Both the position numbers and the translations under genes were made by a program. A DNA stretch of 64,000 bases. Source: Aquiflexum balticum DSM 16537 (lineage in GTDB: Bacteria > Bacteroidota > Bacteroidia > Cytophagales > Cyclobacteriaceae). The notes beneath the pieces were generated by a model. That model did no database searches. It saw only the letters and a list, made by a program, of their open reading frames with translations, and was not told the origin of the DNA. The first letter of the stretch is position 1. Each line of letters opens with the position of its first letter. Of the stretch, positions 36,883 to 45,759 are shown one piece after another. Location: the NCBI RefSeq assembly GCF_900176595.1, contig NZ_LT838813.1:5722001-5786000 (forward strand). The letters are read 5' to 3'.

Positions 36883-36960
36883 AACTGAGAACTACTGCAA
36901 ACTGAGACTGCCCACTGCAACTGAAAACTACCTACTGCCCACTGAGACCGCCTACTGCCC
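36883..36960. repeat. ACT-centred repeat with mostly 7-base period, entering the tyrA 3' end
   Basis: ACT starts at 36884, 36891, 36894, 36901, 36907, 36914, 36920, 36927, 36934 and 36941: steps are mostly 7 (some 6 or 3). The right end covers the tyrA stop codon and last two codons. Spacer 36662-36882 shows nothing else. Confidence 0.7.
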
Positions 36961-37800
36961 CAAATCCAAAATATCCCTGATCTTATTCACTTTTCCCATT
37001 TCATTGGCCAACCCTTCATAGTCATCGGCAATGATTTTATCTCTGAACTTGGAAAGACTTGCAATGTAAAGACTCATGGCATCCAAGATGTTCTTCTTAT
37101 TTTCCTCCATTATCGGTGCCCACATCGCAGGTGAGCTTTTGGCCAAACGTACTGTGGACGCAAAGCCTGAACCTGCCATATCGAAGATATTTTTTTCATC
37201 TTCCATTTTATCCAACACCGTTTTCCCCAACATAAATGAAGAAATATGGGACAAATGGGATACGAAAGCCAAGTGCCTGTCATGTTCCTCAGGATCCATA
37301 AAACGTAACTTCATATTGAGTGCCTCCAAAATCTCGTAGGCCATTCCTTTGAGATGAATATTGGTTTTTTCCATCTCACAGATGATAAATACTTTTTTGT
37401 CCAACAGATTTTCCTGAGCCGCTTTTGGCCCTGAATACTCCGTACCTGCAATGGGGTGACCTGCCAAATACTGCTCTCTTTTGGGATGATCCGCTACAGA
37501 TTTACAAAGGGCCTCTTTGGTTGATCCAAAATCCATTACCAAGGTATTTGGACCTATTTCATCCAAAGTTTTGACTAAAAGTTCAGATAAGGTATTTGCC
37601 GGTGTAGCCAAAACAATCACATCTGTATCCATATCGGGTTTTTCTTTGGCTTCCTCAATGATTCCCAAGGCTATGGCGTCTTCCTGGTTTTGTGAATTTG
37701 AATCGTATCCAGTGAATTTGATTTCAGGTTTTGCTTTTTTAAGAGCCAAAGCAAATGAACCTCCCAAAAGACCAAGCCCGATGATGTGTATTTTTTTCAT
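36952..37800 (-). CDS. tyrA: Prephenate dehydrogenase
   Basis: Protein of 282 residues. NAD-binding IHIIGLGLLGGSFALALKKA at the N-terminus; DFGSTKEALCKSV and AGHPIAGTEYSGPKAAQENL carry the prephenate-binding His and Gly residues. The helical dimerisation domain follows (FVSHLSHISSFMLGK). There is no ACT domain, so feedback by Tyr is not expected through that module. It makes 4-hydroxyphenylpyruvate for tyrosine. The last residues (GQ) and stop codon lie inside an intergenic repeat. Confidence 0.93.
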   Translation of the reverse strand: MKKIHIIGLGLLGGSFALALKKAKPEIKFTGYDSNSQNQEDAIALGIIEEAKEKPDMDTDVIVLATPANTLSELLVKTLDEIGPNTLVMDFGSTKEALCKSVADHPKREQYLAGHPIAGTEYSGPKAAQENLLDKKVFIICEMEKTNIHLKGMAYEILEALNMKLRFMDPEEHDRHLAFVSHLSHISSFMLGKTVLDKMEDEKNIFDMAGSGFASTVRLAKSSPAMWAPIMEENKKNILDAMSLYIASLSKFRDKIIADDYEGLANEMGKVNKIRDILDLGQ

Positions 37801-37830: not shown

Positions 37831-38973
37831 TTAAATTCTATTGATAGCTTCTTGGATAGCTTTTTCATGTACACAGAGAGAAAACCTTACATACCCTTCT
37901 CCTGCCTTACCAAACACATGGCCGGGAGTGACGAAAATATGATAAGTATAAAGTAGGCTGTCCACAAATTGATCTGAACTTTGTCCTTCGGGCAGTTTGG
38001 CCCAGACAAACATCCCTGCTGTGTCTTTCTCACAACTCATGCCCAACTTTTCGACCAAATCCCAAACGAGTTTTCTCCGCTCTGAATAAGTTTTGTTTAA
38101 TTGCTGATACCAATCTCCACCCAATGCCAAAGCTGCAATCGCTCCTTCCTGTATCCCCAAAAACATGCCGGAATCCATATTGCTTTTCACTTTGGTGATA
38201 GCTTGAATCCATTCAGCTTTTCCTGCAAGCATCCCTATCCGCCAACCTGCCATATTGGAAGTTTTACTCAGGGAGTTGAGCTCCAAGGCAATCTCTTTGG
38301 AACCTTCAATCTGAAAGATGCTTTTTGGATTGTCTTCCAAAATGAAACTGTAAGGATTATCATGGGCAATGATGATATTGTATTTTTTGCCAAAGGCTAT
38401 CAGTTTTTGAAACAAATGAAGATCAGCCTTGGCTCCGGTAGGCATGTGGGGATAGTTTACCCACATGATTTTGACCTTGCTTAGATCCTGTTTTTCCAAT
38501 TCTTTAAAATCAGGATACCATTTATTTTCAGCCTTCAATGAATAATAAATCGGAGAGGCACCCAATAATTTTGCTACAGAAGTATAGGTGGGGTATCCAG
38601 GATCAGGGATCAATACTTCATCCCCTTCATTCAGAAAAGTCATGGAAACATGCATGATGCCTTCTTTGGATCCTATGAGTGGAAGAATCTCCGTTTGAGG
38701 CAATAATGATGCCTGATAAAATTTGAAATAAAATTCCGCAAATGCCTTTCTCAAGGCAGGAATCCCTTGATAATTTTGATAACCGTGGGATTTGGGAAGA
38801 GAAGCTGTTTTGTATAAAGCCTCCACTACTGTCAGATGTGGTGGTAAGTCAGGACTGCCAATTCCCATGTTGATAATGGGCTTCCCTTCAGCTATCAGTT
38901 GATTGACTTCTTTGAGTTTTTTGGAAAAATAATATTCCTCAACTTGAGCAACTCTTTTTGAAAAAGACACCAT
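37831..38973 (-). CDS. Class I/II PLP-dependent aminotransferase of the aromatic locus
   Basis: Protein of 380 residues, fold type I. Motifs: MGIGSPDLPPH, ILPLIGSKEGIMHVSM, DPGYPTYTSVAKLLGASPIY, NYPHMPTGA and the PLP-binding Lys in ELNSLSKTSNMAGWRIGMLA. It lies between pheA and tyrA, so it most likely transaminates phenylpyruvate and hydroxyphenylpyruvate. It resembles LL-diaminopimelate and aspartate-type enzymes, which are the alternatives. Its ATG shares one base with the pheA stop codon (TAATG). Confidence 0.9.
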   Translation of the reverse strand: MVSFSKRVAQVEEYYFSKKLKEVNQLIAEGKPIINMGIGSPDLPPHLTVVEALYKTASLPKSHGYQNYQGIPALRKAFAEFYFKFYQASLLPQTEILPLIGSKEGIMHVSMTFLNEGDEVLIPDPGYPTYTSVAKLLGASPIYYSLKAENKWYPDFKELEKQDLSKVKIMWVNYPHMPTGAKADLHLFQKLIAFGKKYNIIIAHDNPYSFILEDNPKSIFQIEGSKEIALELNSLSKTSNMAGWRIGMLAGKAEWIQAITKVKSNMDSGMFLGIQEGAIAALALGGDWYQQLNKTYSERRKLVWDLVEKLGMSCEKDTAGMFVWAKLPEGQSSDQFVDSLLYTYHIFVTPGHVFGKAGEGYVRFSLCVHEKAIQEAINRI

Positions 38974-39788
38974 TATTTCCTGTTTAGGTATTCCCCAAAG
39001 ATTTTGACCTCCCCAAAATTATTGTTTATTTCTTGAATTGCATTTTGAAAAGCAGCATAATCATCAAATTGTGTATCTATAAAAAATGCATATTCCCAAG
39101 GTTTTTCAATAACCGGTATGGACTGGATTTTGCTGAGGTCCAAACCATAGTCGCTCATCATGGTAAGCAATTTGGCCAAAATTCCTTTGGAGTTTTTTAC
39201 TGTAACTTTGATAGATGCTTTATTGGGCACAAAATCCAAATTCACATTATCTTTTTGGAGGATGATAAACCTAGTGAAATTATTTTTGACTGTCTGTATG
39301 TCTTCGGCCAATATTTCCAAGTCATAGATTTTTGCAGCTGTTTTACTGGCAATAGCCCCGATTCCGGAAAGCTTTTCTTCTGAAATTCTTTTGGCTACCG
39401 AAGCCGTGTCCACATCATCAATCAATTGGATGGCAGGATGGTTTTCAAAAAACTTTTTGCATTGCAGCAGGGCCATAGGATGGGACCTGACTTCCAAAAG
39501 GTTATTAATCTCTCGGCCGGGCAATGCCATCAGATTGTGTGAAATGGGCAGGTAATATTCATCTTTAATCCGGAGATTGTACCGGTCTATCAATTCGTAA
39601 TTTGGAAGGATAGCTCCTGCAATTGAATTTTCTATGGCCAAAACCCCAAATTCCGCTTCCCCTTTACTGACACTTTTGGCAACTTCCTCAAATATCCGAA
39701 ATCCCAAAATCCCTGCATCCGCCCCAAAAACATTGAGTGCCACCTGATGGTGAAATGAACCGGGAATTCCTTGTATTGCGATTTGCAT
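38973..39788 (-). CDS. pheA: Prephenate dehydratase with ACT domain
   Basis: Protein of 271 residues without chorismate mutase. The PDT domain starts IAIQGIPGSFHHQVALNVFG and contains the catalytic-region TVKNNFTRFIIL (TRF motif). A C-terminal ACT domain (about 190-271: IKVTVKNSKGILAKLLTMMS) should bind Phe, but the usual ESRP motif reads IEKP here, so the binding site may differ. It makes phenylpyruvate. The mutase activity is supplied by the two DAHP synthase fusions of the locus. Confidence 0.94.
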   Translation of the reverse strand: MQIAIQGIPGSFHHQVALNVFGADAGILGFRIFEEVAKSVSKGEAEFGVLAIENSIAGAILPNYELIDRYNLRIKDEYYLPISHNLMALPGREINNLLEVRSHPMALLQCKKFFENHPAIQLIDDVDTASVAKRISEEKLSGIGAIASKTAAKIYDLEILAEDIQTVKNNFTRFIILQKDNVNLDFVPNKASIKVTVKNSKGILAKLLTMMSDYGLDLSKIQSIPVIEKPWEYAFFIDTQFDDYAAFQNAIQEINNNFGEVKIFGEYLNRK

Positions 39789-39802
39789 TTAGGCTAATTA
39801 TT

Positions 39803-39904
39803 TTATGGTAGAATTAGATTAACATCCTGAATTCTCTCAAAATGCTTTCTTCTGAAATAATCAAAAAGTACAGAAGTATCCAAGCAAATTATTCTGCTCT
39901 CCAT
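39803..39904 (-). pseudogene. Truncated VapC-type PIN toxin (33 codons left)
   Basis: ATG at 39902-39904, overlapping the end of the vapB-like gene, then MESRIICLDTSVLFDYFRRK and 13 more residues before TAA at 39803-39805. ICLDTSVLFDYF is the first strand of a PIN domain with its catalytic Asp. Complete VapC proteins have about 130 residues; the rest is absent, and pheA starts 14 bases after the stop. A deletion fused the remnant to pheA's leader. It cannot be an active nuclease. Confidence 0.82.
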
Positions 39905-40128
39905 TTGTTGATTAAATCTCTTGCTTCCGATATTTTCTCCAACTCTTCTTTAGAAAGCGTCGGGCCCTGTAAAAGCAGTTCCCTTAAAATTTCACTTTTC
40001 CTTTTTCTCTGATCCATTTCCAAAGTTTTTTGATCGAGAAGGACTTTGACCTCTACCAATTCATCAGGTTGAAGACTATTGATGATCTCCTTTAATTGAT
40101 CTATATTTTTTTCTAATGACACACCCAT
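39889..40128 (-). CDS. VapB-like antitoxin, now without an intact toxin
   Basis: Protein of 79 residues, charged and helical (IDQLKEIINSLQPDELVEVK, then SEILRELLLQGPTLSKEELE). The tail EARDLINKWRAE resembles toxin-wrapping ends of VapB-type antitoxins. The truncated vapC remnant starts inside its last codons. Sitting just upstream of pheA, it may now simply be co-transcribed with pheA, the aminotransferase gene and tyrA. Confidence 0.7.
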   Translation of the reverse strand: MGVSLEKNIDQLKEIINSLQPDELVEVKVLLDQKTLEMDQRKRKSEILRELLLQGPTLSKEELEKISEARDLINKWRAE

Positions 40129-40249
40129 ATCTAAATATACGGAAATTTACATTTTTGATTCTAATTTTGTGTTTAACAACCTTCTAGTATTTCTTGACTA
40201 TTGGTTCTAAAATCTCGCATCCCCATTACTCGGGGCAATCCTTTACCTT

Positions 40250-40510
40250 CATCCCTCATCCTTTATCCTTCATCCTTTCCCCACTTATTTCTTGGCTCTC
40301 ATCTTTCCCTCTTCATACATCCCCCTCGTCCTTCACGAGATTGCCACGTCGCATGGAGGACTATTAAAATATCCAAGTTCTCTAATGCTCCTCGCAGTGA
40401 CAGTGTCTCAACCTTCATCCCTCATCCTTTCTCCTTCATCCTTTACCCCCTTCATCCTTTCTCCTCTTGGTTCTTGATTCTTGATTCTAATCTCTCGCTT
40501 CTCGCTTCTC
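40250..40510. repeat. Cluster of heptamer tandem repeats in the spacer upstream of the vapB-like gene
   Basis: CATCCCT-CATCCTT-TATCCTT-CATCCTT (40250-40277), the same set again with TCTCCTT (40416-40466), TTCTTGA x2 plus TTCTAAT (40471-40491) and TCTCGCT x2 (40493-40506). All have a 7-base period. Between them (about 40330-40415) is a piece resembling Bacteroidota intergenic repeats (CACGAGATTGCCACGTCGC and CCTCGCAGTGACAG). Confidence 0.85.
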
Positions 40511-40523
40511 AACCCTTCCCTTC

Positions 40524-40563
40524 AGGAAAAACCTTCGAGGTCAAAAAAAGACCTCAAAGGTTT
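40524..40563 (-). terminator. Terminator of aroA
   Basis: On minus: AAACCTTTGAGGTC, loop of seven T, GACCTCGAAGGTTT, then TTCC; 14-base arms with one mismatch (40528-40541 and 40550-40563). Confidence 0.85.
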
Positions 40564-41798
40564 CAAAGTCTTGTATCTTGTGTCTTGCGTCTTGCATCTA
40601 TCAAAGCAACATGCTTCCAAAAACTCGGATAAGATTTATTGACTACTTCCGGGTCTTCAATAAAGACGTTGGTCTTGGTCATCAACGGCATAAAGGCCAT
40701 GGCCATTCTATGATCATCATAGGTATGGATCCGGACTTCATGGGGCATTTGAACCGATGGAATCAAAGTAAACGCTTCATTTTCACCCTCCACTAATTCA
40801 GCATTGAAGCTTGCCAATTCCTGCTGCAAAGCATAAATCCGGTCGGTTTCTTTGATCCTAAGGCTTTCAAGACCCGTTAATGTAGTTTTCTGACCTATAA
40901 TGGCGCAAGTCACCGCAACGGTCTGGGCCAAGTCCGGGCAATGGGTAAAATCCCAAGAAGCCAAGCCTTTCACTTTTTGTTTGGTCAATTTTACACCACC
41001 CGCTTTAAACTCACTTTTAACGCCTAACCTGTCCATAATATCCACAATGGCTGAATCTCCTTGCAGACTGTTTTCTTTCAATCCCTCCAAAAACAACTCG
41101 CCTTTATCCGCACAGGCCAAAAGACTGAACCAATAGCTCGCTCCTGACCAATCGCTCTCTACTGAAAAAGCAGTAGGTTGATAGGACTGATTCGGAATTT
41201 TAATCTTGTTATCTTCCCAAGTATAGTTGATCCCAAATTGCTTCATCAACTGCAGGGTCATCTCTATATAAGTTCTTGACCCAACTTTTCCTTCCAATGT
41301 AATCTCCAAACCTTTTGGAAGCAAAGGTGCTATCATCAGCATGGCTGAAATATACTGGCTGCTGACATCACCTCGGATGGTCACTTGATCATTCACTTGT
41401 TCCGGCATACCATGAATTGCCAAAGGCGGAAATCCTTCTTTGTTCATATAATGAATTTCTGCCCCAATATGCCTTAAAGCATCCACCAAAATCCCAATGG
41501 GCCTTTCGCACATTCTTGGGGTGCCGGTCATGACTTTATGCTGGTTGGTTACCACTGCATAGGCAGTCAAAAACCGCATGGTGGTACCCGCATCCAAGAC
41601 ATCAAAAATAGCCGGATTCTGTTTGAGCAAACGAATCATGGTCTGTGTGTCTCTGGCTTCCGCCAAGTTGGTGATGGAATTTTCACCAGCTGTCAAGGCA
41701 TCAATTATCAAAACCCTGTTGCTTTCACTTTTCGAGGAAGGTAAAGGGATTATTGTTGATTGAAATGAGCTGATCTGTTGTAAATATTGGGCAATCAT
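40563..41798 (-). CDS. aroA: 3-Phosphoshikimate 1-carboxyvinyltransferase (EPSP synthase)
   Basis: Protein of 411 residues. Shikimate-3-phosphate site: PLPSSKSESNRVLIIDAL near the N-terminus. FDVLDAGTTMRFLTAYAVV, RMCERPIGILVDALRHIGAE, RGDVSSQYISAMLMIAPLLP and YDDHRMAMAFMPL (catalytic Asp/His/Arg) follow. It joins shikimate 3-phosphate and PEP. The last ten residues (ARRKTQDTRL) are encoded by four copies of a heptamer repeat, so the natural C-terminus seems to have been extended or replaced by the repeat. Confidence 0.95.
   Translation of the reverse strand: MIAQYLQQISSFQSTIIPLPSSKSESNRVLIIDALTAGENSITNLAEARDTQTMIRLLKQNPAIFDVLDAGTTMRFLTAYAVVTNQHKVMTGTPRMCERPIGILVDALRHIGAEIHYMNKEGFPPLAIHGMPEQVNDQVTIRGDVSSQYISAMLMIAPLLPKGLEITLEGKVGSRTYIEMTLQLMKQFGINYTWEDNKIKIPNQSYQPTAFSVESDWSGASYWFSLLACADKGELFLEGLKENSLQGDSAIVDIMDRLGVKSEFKAGGVKLTKQKVKGLASWDFTHCPDLAQTVAVTCAIIGQKTTLTGLESLRIKETDRIYALQQELASFNAELVEGENEAFTLIPSVQMPHEVRIHTYDDHRMAMAFMPLMTKTNVFIEDPEVVNKSYPSFWKHVALIDARRKTQDTRL
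40568..40598. repeat. GTCTTGY heptamer repeat inside the aroA 3' end
   Basis: GTCTTGT-ATCTTGT-GTCTTGC-GTCTTGC-ATC on plus; on minus it is coding sequence for the end of AroA. Confidence 0.9.
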
Positions 41799-41861: not shown

Positions 41862-42950
41862 TTATAGGTCTCTATAATAATGGAAAGAGTCAAAAATCTC
41901 CTCCACAGTCACATTGAAGTTGTATTCACATTTACCAATTTGGGTCAATAAGGAAAAATTGAGGGTTTTTCCTTCATTTTTTTTGTCCTGGCTACAGAGG
42001 GCGACTATGGCCGGAATATCTTCGACAGGGAAATCAAATTTCCCGAATACATCCATCAGCATTTTATTTATGATCTCCAATTCAGATTTTGAAAGACCTG
42101 ATTTTTTGACTGATAGATAGGATTCACAGATCATCCCGATAGCAATGGCTTCCCCATGCAACAAGTGTCTGTCTGAATCCAGATAATAAGATTCAAAAGC
42201 ATGCCCAATCGTATGGCCAAAATTGAGTATTTTCCTTAATCCGGATTCTTTGGGGTCCTTTTGAACCACCTCCTTTTTGATACTCACTGACTTTTCAATG
42301 ATTTCTCTCCAGTTCTGCTTTTCCCATCCTTCTGCTTTGAGACATCCAAAATAATTGGCATTTCGAATCAATCCATGTTTGATTACTTCTGCATAACCCG
42401 ACCTTAATTCCTCCTTAGGCAGGGTCTTTAGAAATACTTCAGAAATCATCACCGCTTCCGGTTCTGCAAAGACACCAATATGATTTTTGAAACCGTTGAA
42501 ATCCACTCCCAATTTACCACCAACACTGGCATCGACCTGAGAAAGCAAAGTGGTGGGAATATTGACAAATCGTACACCCCTTTTATAAGTCGCTGCGCAA
42601 AATCCGCCCATATCCCCTGTGACACCACCACCAAGGTTGATGATCAATGCTTTACGGTCAAAGGCTTCATCTGTCATCCATTGCCAGATAGCAGTACATG
42701 TCTCCAGGTTTTTGTGGGTTTCTCCTGCCGGAAAGGAATACTGAGAGAACCCTCCGGGTAAGTTATCCTTTATGAGGGGCAGGCAAAGTTTTTCAGTATT
42801 GGTATCTGTGATGACCCCTAACTTGGAAAAGCTATGATTTGCCAGATAGCTCTTGAGATCTTCGGCTATGGTATTGGAAAATATGATTGATTCCAAAATG
42901 TTTTTTTTAATGTTTATCTGCTTCTTTGCCAGTAACCCAATATTCTTCAA
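41862..42950 (-). CDS. aroB: 3-Dehydroquinate synthase
   Basis: Protein of 362 residues; the first 18 residues may not belong, since family members usually begin near LESIIFSNTIAEDLKSYL. NAD-binding GGGVTGDMGGFCAATYKRGV, zinc and substrate residues in GYAEVIKHGLI, and ILNFGHTIGHAFES followed by LLHGEAIAIGM. It converts DAHP to dehydroquinate, second step of the shikimate pathway. The aroA gene follows after 63 bases. Confidence 0.95.
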   Translation of the reverse strand: MKNIGLLAKKQINIKKNILESIIFSNTIAEDLKSYLANHSFSKLGVITDTNTEKLCLPLIKDNLPGGFSQYSFPAGETHKNLETCTAIWQWMTDEAFDRKALIINLGGGVTGDMGGFCAATYKRGVRFVNIPTTLLSQVDASVGGKLGVDFNGFKNHIGVFAEPEAVMISEVFLKTLPKEELRSGYAEVIKHGLIRNANYFGCLKAEGWEKQNWREIIEKSVSIKKEVVQKDPKESGLRKILNFGHTIGHAFESYYLDSDRHLLHGEAIAIGMICESYLSVKKSGLSKSELEIINKMLMDVFGKFDFPVEDIPAIVALCSQDKKNEGKTLNFSLLTQIGKCEYNFNVTVEEIFDSFHYYRDL

Positions 42951-43252: not shown

Positions 43253-44350
43253 TCACTTCTTCACCGCAGCCGCTTCTCTCAACTGCTTCTCCTGTCTTTT
43301 GACAGACTCTTCATGGATACAATAAAGCAATTCCTTCATGAATTTTTCGCTGAGGTTTTTCTCCACACCTTTTTGGGTCCGGGATTCCATCACATATTTC
43401 CATCTGTCCGATTGGAATACGGTCAGGTGATGTTCTCTTTTATAAGCACCTACCTGATCGATCAAGGAGAACCTTTCCTGTAGAATATCCAACAATTGAT
43501 CATCCAAGTGGTCAATGGCATTTCTCAGGTCGTTCAATCTTTCACTCGGGTTTTCTGCGCCTAGCGTATCTTTAAAGTCAATCTGGGATAATATATTTTT
43601 CAAAGCGGCGGGAGTTACTTGTTGCTTTGCATCAGACCAAGCGTTATCCGGGTCATGGTGTGTCTCGATCATCAAACCATCCAAGCCAAAATTGATGGCC
43701 CGCTGCGCTGTTTCCAAAATACCTTCCCTGTTTCCAACGATATGGCTAGGGTCATTGATCACTTCCATACCTTTCCACTCTCTTTTCAAGTGAATGGGCA
43801 TTGACCAATTGGGCTTATTACGGAATCTTTTGTCATAAGAATCTGAAAATCCTCTGTGAATAGCGGCCAACTTATTGATGCCCACGGCATGCAATCTTTC
43901 CAAGGCGCCTATCCAAAGCTGGAGATCCGGATTCATGGGGTTTTTGACCATTACGGGAATATCAACTCCTCTTAGCGCTTCAGCAATTTCCTGTACGGCA
44001 AAAGGATTGACCGTAGTTCTTGCTCCAATCCAAAGCACATCAACTTTATGTTTAAGTGCCATCTCCGCATGGGCGGCATTTCCTACTTCCGTGGTAATGG
44101 GGATATTAAGGTGATGTCTGACTATTTCCATCCATTTGAGACCATCTTCTCCAATGCCTTCAAACATCCCGGGTCTTGTACGGGGTTTCCAAATACCTGC
44201 ACGGAACATGCTGGGAATCATATTTTCCTTTTTCATGTCTATGCAGACTTTTTCGATCTGTTCAGGGCTTTCTGCACTGCAGGGACCGGCTATGATGACA
44301 TGTCCTTCAAGTCCTAATCCCCAGTCTTTGGTTTGTAAGTGATCTTTCAT
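43253..44350 (-). CDS. DAHP synthase-chorismate mutase fusion, attenuator-controlled copy
   Basis: Protein of 365 residues. The N-terminal DAHP synthase (KDO8P-like type) shows VIIAGPCSAESPEQIEKV, the PEP/E4P motif GIWKPRTRPGMFEG, AIHRGFSDSYDKRFRNKPNW and the metal-site DPSHIVGNR. From about residue 275 an AroQ chorismate mutase helix domain follows (LNDLRNAIDHLDDQLLDILQ, then VGAYKREH). The first and the branch-point step of aromatic synthesis are thus in one chain. In relatives, prephenate or chorismate bound by the mutase part regulates the synthase. A Phe/Tyr leader peptide and terminator lie directly upstream, unlike for the paralogue. Confidence 0.94.
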   Translation of the reverse strand: MKDHLQTKDWGLGLEGHVIIAGPCSAESPEQIEKVCIDMKKENMIPSMFRAGIWKPRTRPGMFEGIGEDGLKWMEIVRHHLNIPITTEVGNAAHAEMALKHKVDVLWIGARTTVNPFAVQEIAEALRGVDIPVMVKNPMNPDLQLWIGALERLHAVGINKLAAIHRGFSDSYDKRFRNKPNWSMPIHLKREWKGMEVINDPSHIVGNREGILETAQRAINFGLDGLMIETHHDPDNAWSDAKQQVTPAALKNILSQIDFKDTLGAENPSERLNDLRNAIDHLDDQLLDILQERFSLIDQVGAYKREHHLTVFQSDRWKYVMESRTQKGVEKNLSEKFMKELLYCIHEESVKRQEKQLREAAAVKK

Positions 44351-44368
44351 GATTGTTGAAATTGGTTT

Positions 44369-44457
44369 AAAATAAAAAACCCGACTCTTTCGAATCGGGC
44401 TCTTATATGGTTTGAATTTTTTAATTTTTTACCAGACAATAGGCAGCTCCGATTCGA
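44369..44457 (-). promoter_or_regulatory. Antiterminator/terminator pair of a Phe/Tyr attenuator
   Basis: Terminator on minus: CCCGATTC (44399-44392), GAAA loop, GAGTCGGG (44387-44380), then TTTTTTATTTT, 18 bases before the DAHP synthase ATG. Alternative pairing: TCGAATCGG (44457-44449) is an exact complement of CCGATTCGA (44398-44390), extended by GCT/AGC after one bulged A. This 9-12 bp antiterminator uses the 5' arm of the terminator, so the two folds exclude each other. Confidence 0.8.
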
Positions 44458-44516
44458 CCTTGAGGACGAAAGTAAAAGTAAAAGAAGGTAAAATATGCGA
44501 AGGCTGCGATTAACAT
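44421..44516 (-). CDS. Phe/Tyr-rich leader peptide (31 residues)
   Basis: ATG at 44514-44516, TAA at 44421-44423. Residues 6-16 read FAYFTFFYFYF: six Phe and three Tyr in eleven codons. The rest (RPQGRIGAAYCLVKN) encodes the antiterminator arm at codons 20-24. It resembles enterobacterial pheL and pheST leader peptides in role, not in sequence. The peptide itself probably has no function; ribosome stalling on Phe/Tyr codons would report low charged tRNA. The promoter places the RNA start at or one base before the ATG, so it may be leaderless. Confidence 0.82.
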   Translation of the reverse strand: MLIAAFAYFTFFYFYFRPQGRIGAAYCLVKN

Positions 44517-44520
44517 GTTC

Positions 44521-44551
44521 CAAATGTAAAAGCCACTATTTTAAAAACAAA
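44521..44551 (-). promoter_or_regulatory. Consensus Bacteroidota promoter of the attenuator
   Basis: On minus: TTTG (44551-44548), exactly 19 bases, TACATTTG (44528-44521). Both boxes and the spacing are perfect. The start of transcription is expected at about 44515-44518. Confidence 0.8.
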
Positions 44552-44664: not shown

Positions 44665-45759
44665 TCAGCGTATTTTAGGCTGTTCATTTCTTTCCTGTAC
44701 TTCAGTTTGCTTTTTAATGGATTCTGTATGGATCAGCTGGAAAAGATCTCTGGCAAAATCAGGATTGAGTCTGAGTGCCTCTGCCCATTCCGGCCTAGTC
44801 TCAAAAACTTTCTTCCACCTTTCCATTTGAAAGACCGCAACATTATTTAATTTTTTATATTCTCCAGCTTTCTCGACCAAACTCATTCTTCTGCTCAGTA
44901 TTTCCAGCAGCTCCCTATCCACATCATCAATCTGTTCCCTGATCAAATCCAACTGCGACTGCAATAGCGGATTGTCAACATCCACCTTTCTGGTTTTCAA
45001 GGTCCGTAATAACTGTCCCAAATCAAGCGGGATTAGTTGTTGGGCGGCATCGGACCAAGCATTGTCAGGATCAATATGAGATTCGATCATCAGCCCATCA
45101 AAATTCAGATCCAAAGCCGTTTGGGCTATCTGAGGAATTAAATCCCTTCTTCCACAAATATGGGAAGGGTCATTGAGCAAGGGGATTTCAGGGAAATAGG
45201 TTTTCAATCCCAGAGGAATTTGCCACATGGGGCTATTTCTGTAAGTTTTGTCGTTGAAATTTGAAAAGCCTCTGTGGATAGCTCCTAACTTTTTTATCCC
45301 CGCATGATGAAATCTTTCCAAAGCCCCGATCCATAAAGCAAGATCTGCATTGACCGGGTTTTTGATCAATACGGGTATATCAATCCCTTTGAGACTATTG
45401 GCAATTTCTTGTACTGTGAAGGGATTTACAGTCGATCTAGCTCCTATCCAAAAAATATCAATTCCAAATTTAAGCGCCTCCTCCACGTGTATTGGAGACG
45501 CAACCTCTATGGCGAATTTGACCTTATATTTATCTTTGACTTCTTTGATCCAGGGTAATGCTTTGCTGCCCACTCCCTCAAAACTATTGGGACGTGTTCT
45601 TGGCTTCCATACTCCGCCCCTGATGACTTTAACTCCTTCATTCACCAAGGCCGCAACCGTCTGATCCAATTGCCCCGGAGTTTCCACACTGCAAGGACCA
45701 GCAATATAAAGAGGCATCTCCAGACCCAAATCCCAATTTTCTACTGATAAAATATCCAA
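44665..45759 (-). CDS. DAHP synthase-chorismate mutase fusion, paralogue without attenuator
   Basis: Protein of 364 residues, same two-domain plan as the gene at 43253: IAGPCSVETPGQLDQTVAAL, GVWKPRTRPNSFEG, AIHRGFSNFNDKTYRNSPMW, DPSHICGRRDLI, then an AroQ domain (LDLIREQIDDVDRELLEILS). All main catalytic motifs are kept, so both copies should be active. They differ enough to be old duplicates, probably isoenzymes with different feedback. The 119 bases before it contain no aromatic-rich leader. Confidence 0.94.
   Translation of the reverse strand: MDILSVENWDLGLEMPLYIAGPCSVETPGQLDQTVAALVNEGVKVIRGGVWKPRTRPNSFEGVGSKALPWIKEVKDKYKVKFAIEVASPIHVEEALKFGIDIFWIGARSTVNPFTVQEIANSLKGIDIPVLIKNPVNADLALWIGALERFHHAGIKKLGAIHRGFSNFNDKTYRNSPMWQIPLGLKTYFPEIPLLNDPSHICGRRDLIPQIAQTALDLNFDGLMIESHIDPDNAWSDAAQQLIPLDLGQLLRTLKTRKVDVDNPLLQSQLDLIREQIDDVDRELLEILSRRMSLVEKAGEYKKLNNVAVFQMERWKKVFETRPEWAEALRLNPDFARDLFQLIHTESIKKQTEVQERNEQPKIR

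Follow-up and report, generated by a model that had tools for sequence, protein, structure and literature searches.

Transcription attenuation by a leader peptide is classically known from the pheA, pheST and trp genes of enterobacteria. The phylum Bacteroidota makes little use of Shine-Dalgarno sequences; one of its leader RNAs, Bacteroid-trp, belongs to trp genes. Bacteroid-trp (RF01692) is a predicted cis-regulatory leader RNA found in Bacteroidetes (PMC2864571). A study of F. psychrophilum transcript maps reports "strong clues" that amino-acid operons are attenuated through leader peptides, as well as a conserved structured 5' element upstream of pheA and hisG (PMC9723704). Outside the phylum, the trpL/rnTrpL attenuator transcript of S. 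meliloti starts at the leader ATG, i.e., it is leaderless (PMC7298713).

The window, a stretch of 64,000 nucleotides from Aquiflexum balticum DSM 16537, carries on its minus strand a leader that, as judged from its sequence, is very probably a classical ribosome-mediated transcription attenuator sensing charged tRNA-Phe and tRNA-Tyr (Table 1). Because a Phe/Tyr-rich mini-gene is here combined with a conditional stop signal, the cell probably turns the aromatic genes on only when Phe or Tyr is short. As in the enterobacterial pheA, pheST and trp systems, there is a leader ORF with control codons, a mutually exclusive antiterminator and terminator, and a protector hairpin, and the position of the ribosome would decide the outcome; the leader differs from those systems in lineage and sequence, in being putatively leaderless, in mixing Phe and Tyr codons within one run, in having a DAHP synthase-chorismate mutase (DAHPS-CM)–aroB–aroA cluster as its target, and in that separate Tyr-only versions occur on the phenylalanine 4-hydroxylase gene (phhA). 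Bacteroid-trp is likewise a Bacteroidetes leader RNA but differs in its target, and its covariance model has no match in the window or the genome. The pheA/hisG element of F. psychrophilum shares the phylum, the proposed mechanism, a pheA target and absence from Rfam; compared by description only, the accessible part of that study describes neither a Phe/Tyr run nor a DAHPS-CM or phhA target (PMC9723704). The S. meliloti attenuator resembles ours in its transcript start at the leader ATG, which is predicted here from promoter spacing, and differs in belonging to the Alphaproteobacteria, in sensing Trp and in its trpE(G) target.

The open-access literature, with few subscription papers, yielded no DAHPS-CM or phhA attenuator in Bacteroidota and no tyrosine leader. 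The preliminary description knew of no attenuator for this fusion gene in the phylum; leader-peptide attenuation as such is not unprecedented in Bacteroidota, in view of RF01692 (PMC2864571) and of the suggestion made for F. psychrophilum (PMC9723704). The mechanism is known; what is new, as far as could be checked, is the RNA family with its target operon, its Tyr-only version and its leaderless design.

All parts of the leader named in the preliminary description can be read directly in the minus-strand sequence, at the coordinates it gave: the promoter TTTG-N19-TACATTTG, the 31-codon ORF with a Phe/Tyr run at codons 6–16, the antiterminator of 9 contiguous pairs (12 with one bulged A) whose 5' arm lies in leader codons 20–24, and the terminator with its GAAA loop and U-tract, which overlaps the antiterminator in sequence.

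Table 1. Parts of the leader and genes of the aromatic cluster; coordinates are those of the window.
Feature	Coordinates	Strand	Basis or remark
−33 promoter element TTTG	44548–44551	−	Sequence
−7 promoter element TACATTTG	44521–44528	−	4 nt from end of box to leader ATG
Leader peptide ORF, 31 codons, MLIAAFAYFTFFYFYFRPQGRIGAAYCLVKN	44421–44516	−	Kept in 79/80 orthologs
Outer protector hairpin (S1), 5' arm GCAGC	44503–44507	−	Partner is 44447–44443
Phe/Tyr-rich control codons 6–16 (core run, codons 8–16)	44469–44501	−	Sequence, per-position codon counts
Inner hairpin (S2), 5' arm UUCG, in last Phe codon and Arg17	44467–44470	−	RNAalifold
Inner hairpin (S2), 3' arm CGAA, first part of antiterminator 5' arm	44453–44456	−	RNAalifold
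Antiterminator 5' arm UCGAAUCGG(A)GCU, within leader codons 20–24	44445–44457	−	Pairing and shuffles
Outer protector hairpin (S1), 3' arm GCUGC	44443–44447	−	Pair counts
Antiterminator 3' arm AGCCCGAUUCGA, overlaps terminator 5' arm	44390–44401	−	Sequence, pairing, shuffles
Intrinsic terminator (stem, GAAA loop, U6 tract); CCCGATTC-GAAA-GAGTCGGG-T6 at 44399–44374	44374–44402	−	Sequence, covariation
DAHPS-CM fusion (copy 2), first putatively controlled gene, ATG at 44350	43253–44350	−	Pfam DAHP_synth_1 and CM_2
aroB, 3-dehydroquinate synthase	41862–42950	−	Pfam; directly downstream in 77/80 loci
aroA, EPSP synthase	40563–41798	−	Pfam; downstream in 79/80 loci
pheA, prephenate dehydratase with ACT domain	38973–39788	−	Pfam; at most 3 kb downstream in 57/80 loci
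Class I/II aminotransferase, same cluster	37831–38973	−	Pfam
tyrA, prephenate dehydrogenase	36952–37800	−	Pfam

Species genomes were scanned with the DAHPS-CM protein, which gave 80 named loci in the Cyclobacteriaceae (Aquiflexum, Algoriphagus, Belliella, Cecembia, Echinicola, Cyclobacterium, Litoribacter and other genera), with the window as the 81st sequence; the alignment of these close leaders holds 77 distinct sequences. The genes in the window are ordered as DAHPS-CM copy 1 (44665–45759), leader, copy 2, aroB, aroA, a 0.8-kb gap, pheA, aminotransferase and tyrA. Copy 1 lies directly upstream of the leader in only 24/80 related loci, whereas 77 of them have aroB and 79 have aroA downstream, so the leader belongs to copy 2. 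The preliminary description placed the attenuator in front of one DAHPS-CM gene; it heads a whole aromatic cluster. The two tandem paralogs (44665–45759 and 43253–44350) are about 47% identical, and only the second carries the attenuator. The gap between aroA and pheA (39789–40562) contains repetitive sequence and small-ORF remnants, with one ORF that looks antitoxin-like and another that looks like a truncated PIN-domain ORF.

The promoter is kept throughout the close family. TTTG stands 19–21 nt from the −7 box in 76/81 leaders (TTG in four more), and the box itself matches TAnnTTTG at 5/6 positions or better in all 81, followed by a gap to the ATG of 4 nt (77 leaders) or 5 nt (4 leaders). 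In F. psychrophilum, the sigmaA box was mapped at −12 to −5 (PMC9723704); together with the 4-nt gap seen here, this would make the first base of the leader ATG the transcription start (+1), and from this spacing we infer that the leader mRNA is leaderless. Such mRNAs are rare in the phylum, amounting to 5.5% in F. psychrophilum (PMC9723704), and about 3.7% of 5' UTRs in B. thetaiotaomicron are shorter than 10 nt (PMC7366714). Most leaders of pheA (see below) have the box 17–20 nt upstream or none that could be recognised; with promoters farther upstream, they are not leaderless.

In the proposed mechanism, RNA polymerase would begin transcription on the first base of the leader ATG or immediately beside it, with a ribosome translating the leader behind it. 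When Phe- or Tyr-tRNA is scarce, the ribosome is expected to stall in codons 8–16, its leading edge stopping short of the antiterminator 5' arm by a narrow margin; the arm, left free, would pair with the terminator 5' arm once this has been made, no terminator would form, and the aromatic genes would be transcribed. With ample Phe and Tyr, it would instead continue, first cover the 5' arm and then sit within the antiterminator loop near the stop codon, which should allow the terminator to form and transcription to end. Without a stalled ribosome, the outer hairpin, which joins a segment before the run to one past the antiterminator arm, would hold the arm, and the small inner hairpin possibly does so as well.

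Comparison of upstream regions among orthologs, a check proposed with the preliminary description, found the Phe/Tyr-rich leader in 79/80 orthologs besides the window. In the exception, L058 (Nitritalea), an extra T in the Phe/Tyr run causes an apparent frameshift, explained either by a misassembly or by a broken attenuator. All 81 sequences have the terminator, 21–38 nt past the leader stop codon, and the same motif test gave 0 matches when the sequence upstream of comparable genes was dinucleotide-shuffled. The proposed check asked for compensating changes in both stems. The terminator shows them, with four pairs changed on both sides (11 cells), a result reached by 0/500 shuffles; the antiterminator does not show them among the 77 close leaders, where 97.4% of its cells are paired. 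Its covariation is impossible to observe there because the pairing is nearly invariant, and this invariance is expected, since three segments, one of them coding, must remain mutually compatible. In the window, antiterminator complementarity exceeds that of dinucleotide shuffles (p = 0.001).

Support for the antiterminator comes from diverged leaders, which were found by covariance model, order-wide search and direct inspection, and aligned by role. Leaders precede 10/10 of the closest further DAHPS-CM orthologs examined (54–64% identity, L150–L159) and 0/10 of the next ten; further distant leaders come from the genus of L133–L137 and L140. Model matches in other families at L139, L145, L147, L148 and L149 proved to be terminators without a leader and were set aside. 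The sequences of the diverged leaders differ, yet the antiterminator, the terminator and the outer protector hairpin are kept. Against dinucleotide shuffles, p ≤ 0.05 was obtained in 34/42 non-redundant leaders for the antiterminator (combined p = 4.6e-39) and in 21/42 for the outer hairpin (combined p = 1.6e-20), where the combined values treat the 42 leaders as independent although related sequences are not fully so. In leaders upstream of phhA, the antiterminator is no better than shuffles in half of the cases. Ortholog conservation, terminator covariation and the pairing that persists in diverged leaders together support the Phe/Tyr attenuator reading.

The outer protector hairpin is a feature absent from the preliminary description. 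It is built from different sequences in different clades: ACAAGGAC/GUCCUUGU in L150 and L151, AACAAACC/GGUUUGUU in L153, UCAAUACA/UGUAUUGA in L223 and AACACUUA/UAAGUGUU in L143. The window's own version is weak (p = 0.11). Since the swap test in the close family is weak too (−10.6 own vs. −10.2 swapped), the claim rests on the diverged clades. The inner hairpin S2 was detected unsupervised by RNAalifold; its arms are UUCG/CGAA in 73/76 leaders, compensated as UUCU/AGAA in one (L106) and broken in two, and in nearly all single leaders it does not differ significantly from local shuffles. It was considered as the chief solution to the question of timing discussed below and rejected, being only suggestive.

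The covariance model also matched leaders before pheA and phhA. In Cyclobacteriaceae loci found with PF00800 (pheA) and PF00351 (phhA), a strict test demanding leader ORF and terminator gave Phe+Tyr leaders at 7/30 pheA loci and Tyr-only leaders at 14/30 phhA loci, with one Phe/Tyr leader in addition at phhA; Tyr-only leaders were found at 0/30 pheA loci by the same test, and shuffles likewise gave 0. Aromatic residues in the runs number 90 Phe and 64 Tyr for DAHPS, 35 Phe and 26 Tyr for pheA, and 3 Phe and 58 Tyr for phhA. On these sequences, control-codon content follows the predicted target gene, with Phe+Tyr before pheA and Tyr alone before phhA. Since PhhA converts Phe to Tyr, its regulation calls for a sensor of Tyr, and the Tyr-rich phhA leader is probably a tyrosine-sensing attenuator. 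We know of no other ribosome-mediated tyrosine sensor like these Tyr-only leaders.

Tyr-rich leader ORFs with terminators lie upstream of phhA in many Cyclobacteriaceae and in some other families of Bacteroidia (L141, L143, L146, L171, L173, L174, L178, L179, L181–L183, L185–L187, L189–L191 and L198; that of L185 reads MKRSFNTYYYYYYREIISWSKCYMF). In other families of the class, the strict test found such leaders at 3/27 loci, with further candidates besides. The window genome's own phhA has no clear leader. Phe/Tyr leaders with terminators precede pheA in other genera (L138, L142, L208, L209, L215, L220, L222, L223, L228 and L229). In a class-wide sample of 27 DAHPS-CM genes from other families, no Phe/Tyr leader was found. 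In L144, from another family of Cytophagales (f19), DAHPS-CM and aroB are preceded by a leader reading MKFFNATYYFYWFYFRTRS..., which combines Tyr, Phe and Trp codons and possibly senses all three aromatic amino acids. A Bacteroidia aromatic attenuation regulon with codons tuned per enzyme seems likely, comprising Phe+Tyr leaders for DAHPS-CM and pheA, a Tyr-only tyrosine sensor for phhA and a Tyr+Phe+Trp leader for DAHPS-CM in one distant genome, many of them leaderless.

The C-terminal RIGAAYC-like sequence of the leader peptide is strongly conserved within the close family, as would be expected if the short ORF encoded a functional peptide, acting by nascent-chain arrest or in trans, with RNA pairing of secondary importance; the leader peptide of the S. 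meliloti trp attenuator also acts in trans (PMC7298713). We nevertheless hold this to be very improbable. The C-terminal part differs between clades and is unrelated in the diverged ones while the pairing persists, as one would expect if selection acts on the RNA pairing and not on the peptide; R21, I22 and G23 are fixed as CGA, ATC and GGA (CGA making up 8% of Arg in the overall codon shares of the gene itself), a fixation at codon level that points to an RNA constraint; and a functional peptide does not predict Tyr-only runs before phhA. The leader ORF matches no Pfam or NCBIfam family.

Synonymous codons are also conserved within the Phe/Tyr run (44469–44495). TTT occupies three Phe positions in 75–76 of 76 sequences, its overall share in the gene being 40% of Phe, and the last two Tyr codons are almost fixed as TAC. 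The basic attenuation model does not predict this conservation; perhaps the near-fixed codons keep the run unpaired or affect decoding speed. Unusual conservation at synonymous sites could also be taken to indicate a ligand- or tRNA-sensing RNA of riboswitch or T-box type, classes in which terminator/antiterminator switches are common, with leader translation not involved and the ORF incidental. That we regard as extremely improbable, given that none of the 4227 families of Rfam 15, T-box included, matched at gathering thresholds (weak sub-threshold matches only), that no aptamer-like conserved fold was seen beyond the hairpins described, and that the ORF and its control codons are kept in diverged clades, with codons that follow the target gene. 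The Bacteroides sRNA BTnc231 was considered as a possible relation, but its match (E 0.07, score 19, threshold 80) was put down to chance.

Ribosome-mediated attenuation makes demands on timing, which were considered with a footprint model in which the ribosome reaches 15 nt past the first nucleotide of the P-site codon and no helix may close around it. In the window, counting from the first base of the last Phe codon, the antiterminator 5' arm begins 14 nt on, barely clear of the modelled footprint of a ribosome stalled at that codon; the distance from the last control codon to the arm is 14–21 nt (median 15.5) in 24 DAHPS leaders. Before the terminator 3' arm is made, the mean modelled probability of the antiterminator (76 species) is 0.99 while codons 8–16 occupy the A site and falls to 0.87 at codon 17, then to 0.45 at codon 18 and 0.00 from codon 20 on; in all three leader classes (DAHPS, pheA and phhA) the modelled switch comes 1–4 codons past the last control codon. 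The model thus bears out the earlier view that a stalled ribosome leaves the antiterminator free. That a ribosome at the stop codon does not clearly cover the antiterminator arm had been left as an open point, which the footprint model and the outer hairpin largely resolve: a ribosome near the stop codon would lie inside the antiterminator loop, the simplest answer in the model, where the zero probability with the ribosome at the stop codon is in part a consequence of forbidding pairs across a ribosome. Stalled versus no ribosome, the modelled antiterminator probability is 0.89 vs. 0.66 for DAHPS, 0.90 vs. 0.51 for pheA and 0.78 vs. 0.24 for phhA, where the effect of the outer hairpin is clearest; the window leader without a ribosome still favours the antiterminator in the model (0.99), hardly lowered by its outer hairpin. 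A constitutive terminator yielding a stable small RNA, with long-range pairing devoid of a regulatory role, is scarcely credible: its short terminated transcript would look identical in RNA-seq, and there are weak matches to sRNA models (BTnc231, E 0.07, far below threshold), but antiterminator complementarity beyond chance in 34/42 leaders and an antiterminator placed at a fixed position relative to the last control codon speak against it.

Attenuation by a translated Phe/Tyr leader would provide this Bacteroidota lineage with a well supported, amino-acid-specific circuit acting on both the entry into aromatic biosynthesis and its Phe/Tyr branches; for phenylalanine hydroxylase, a tyrosine-specific switch is predicted. 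Because target enzyme and control codons change together, the family offers a natural experiment on how attenuators acquire their specificity. It also raises the question of how leaderless leader mRNAs initiate translation fast enough for coupling to RNA polymerase. With the RNA model and a set of about 50 diverse leaders, the leader family becomes searchable.
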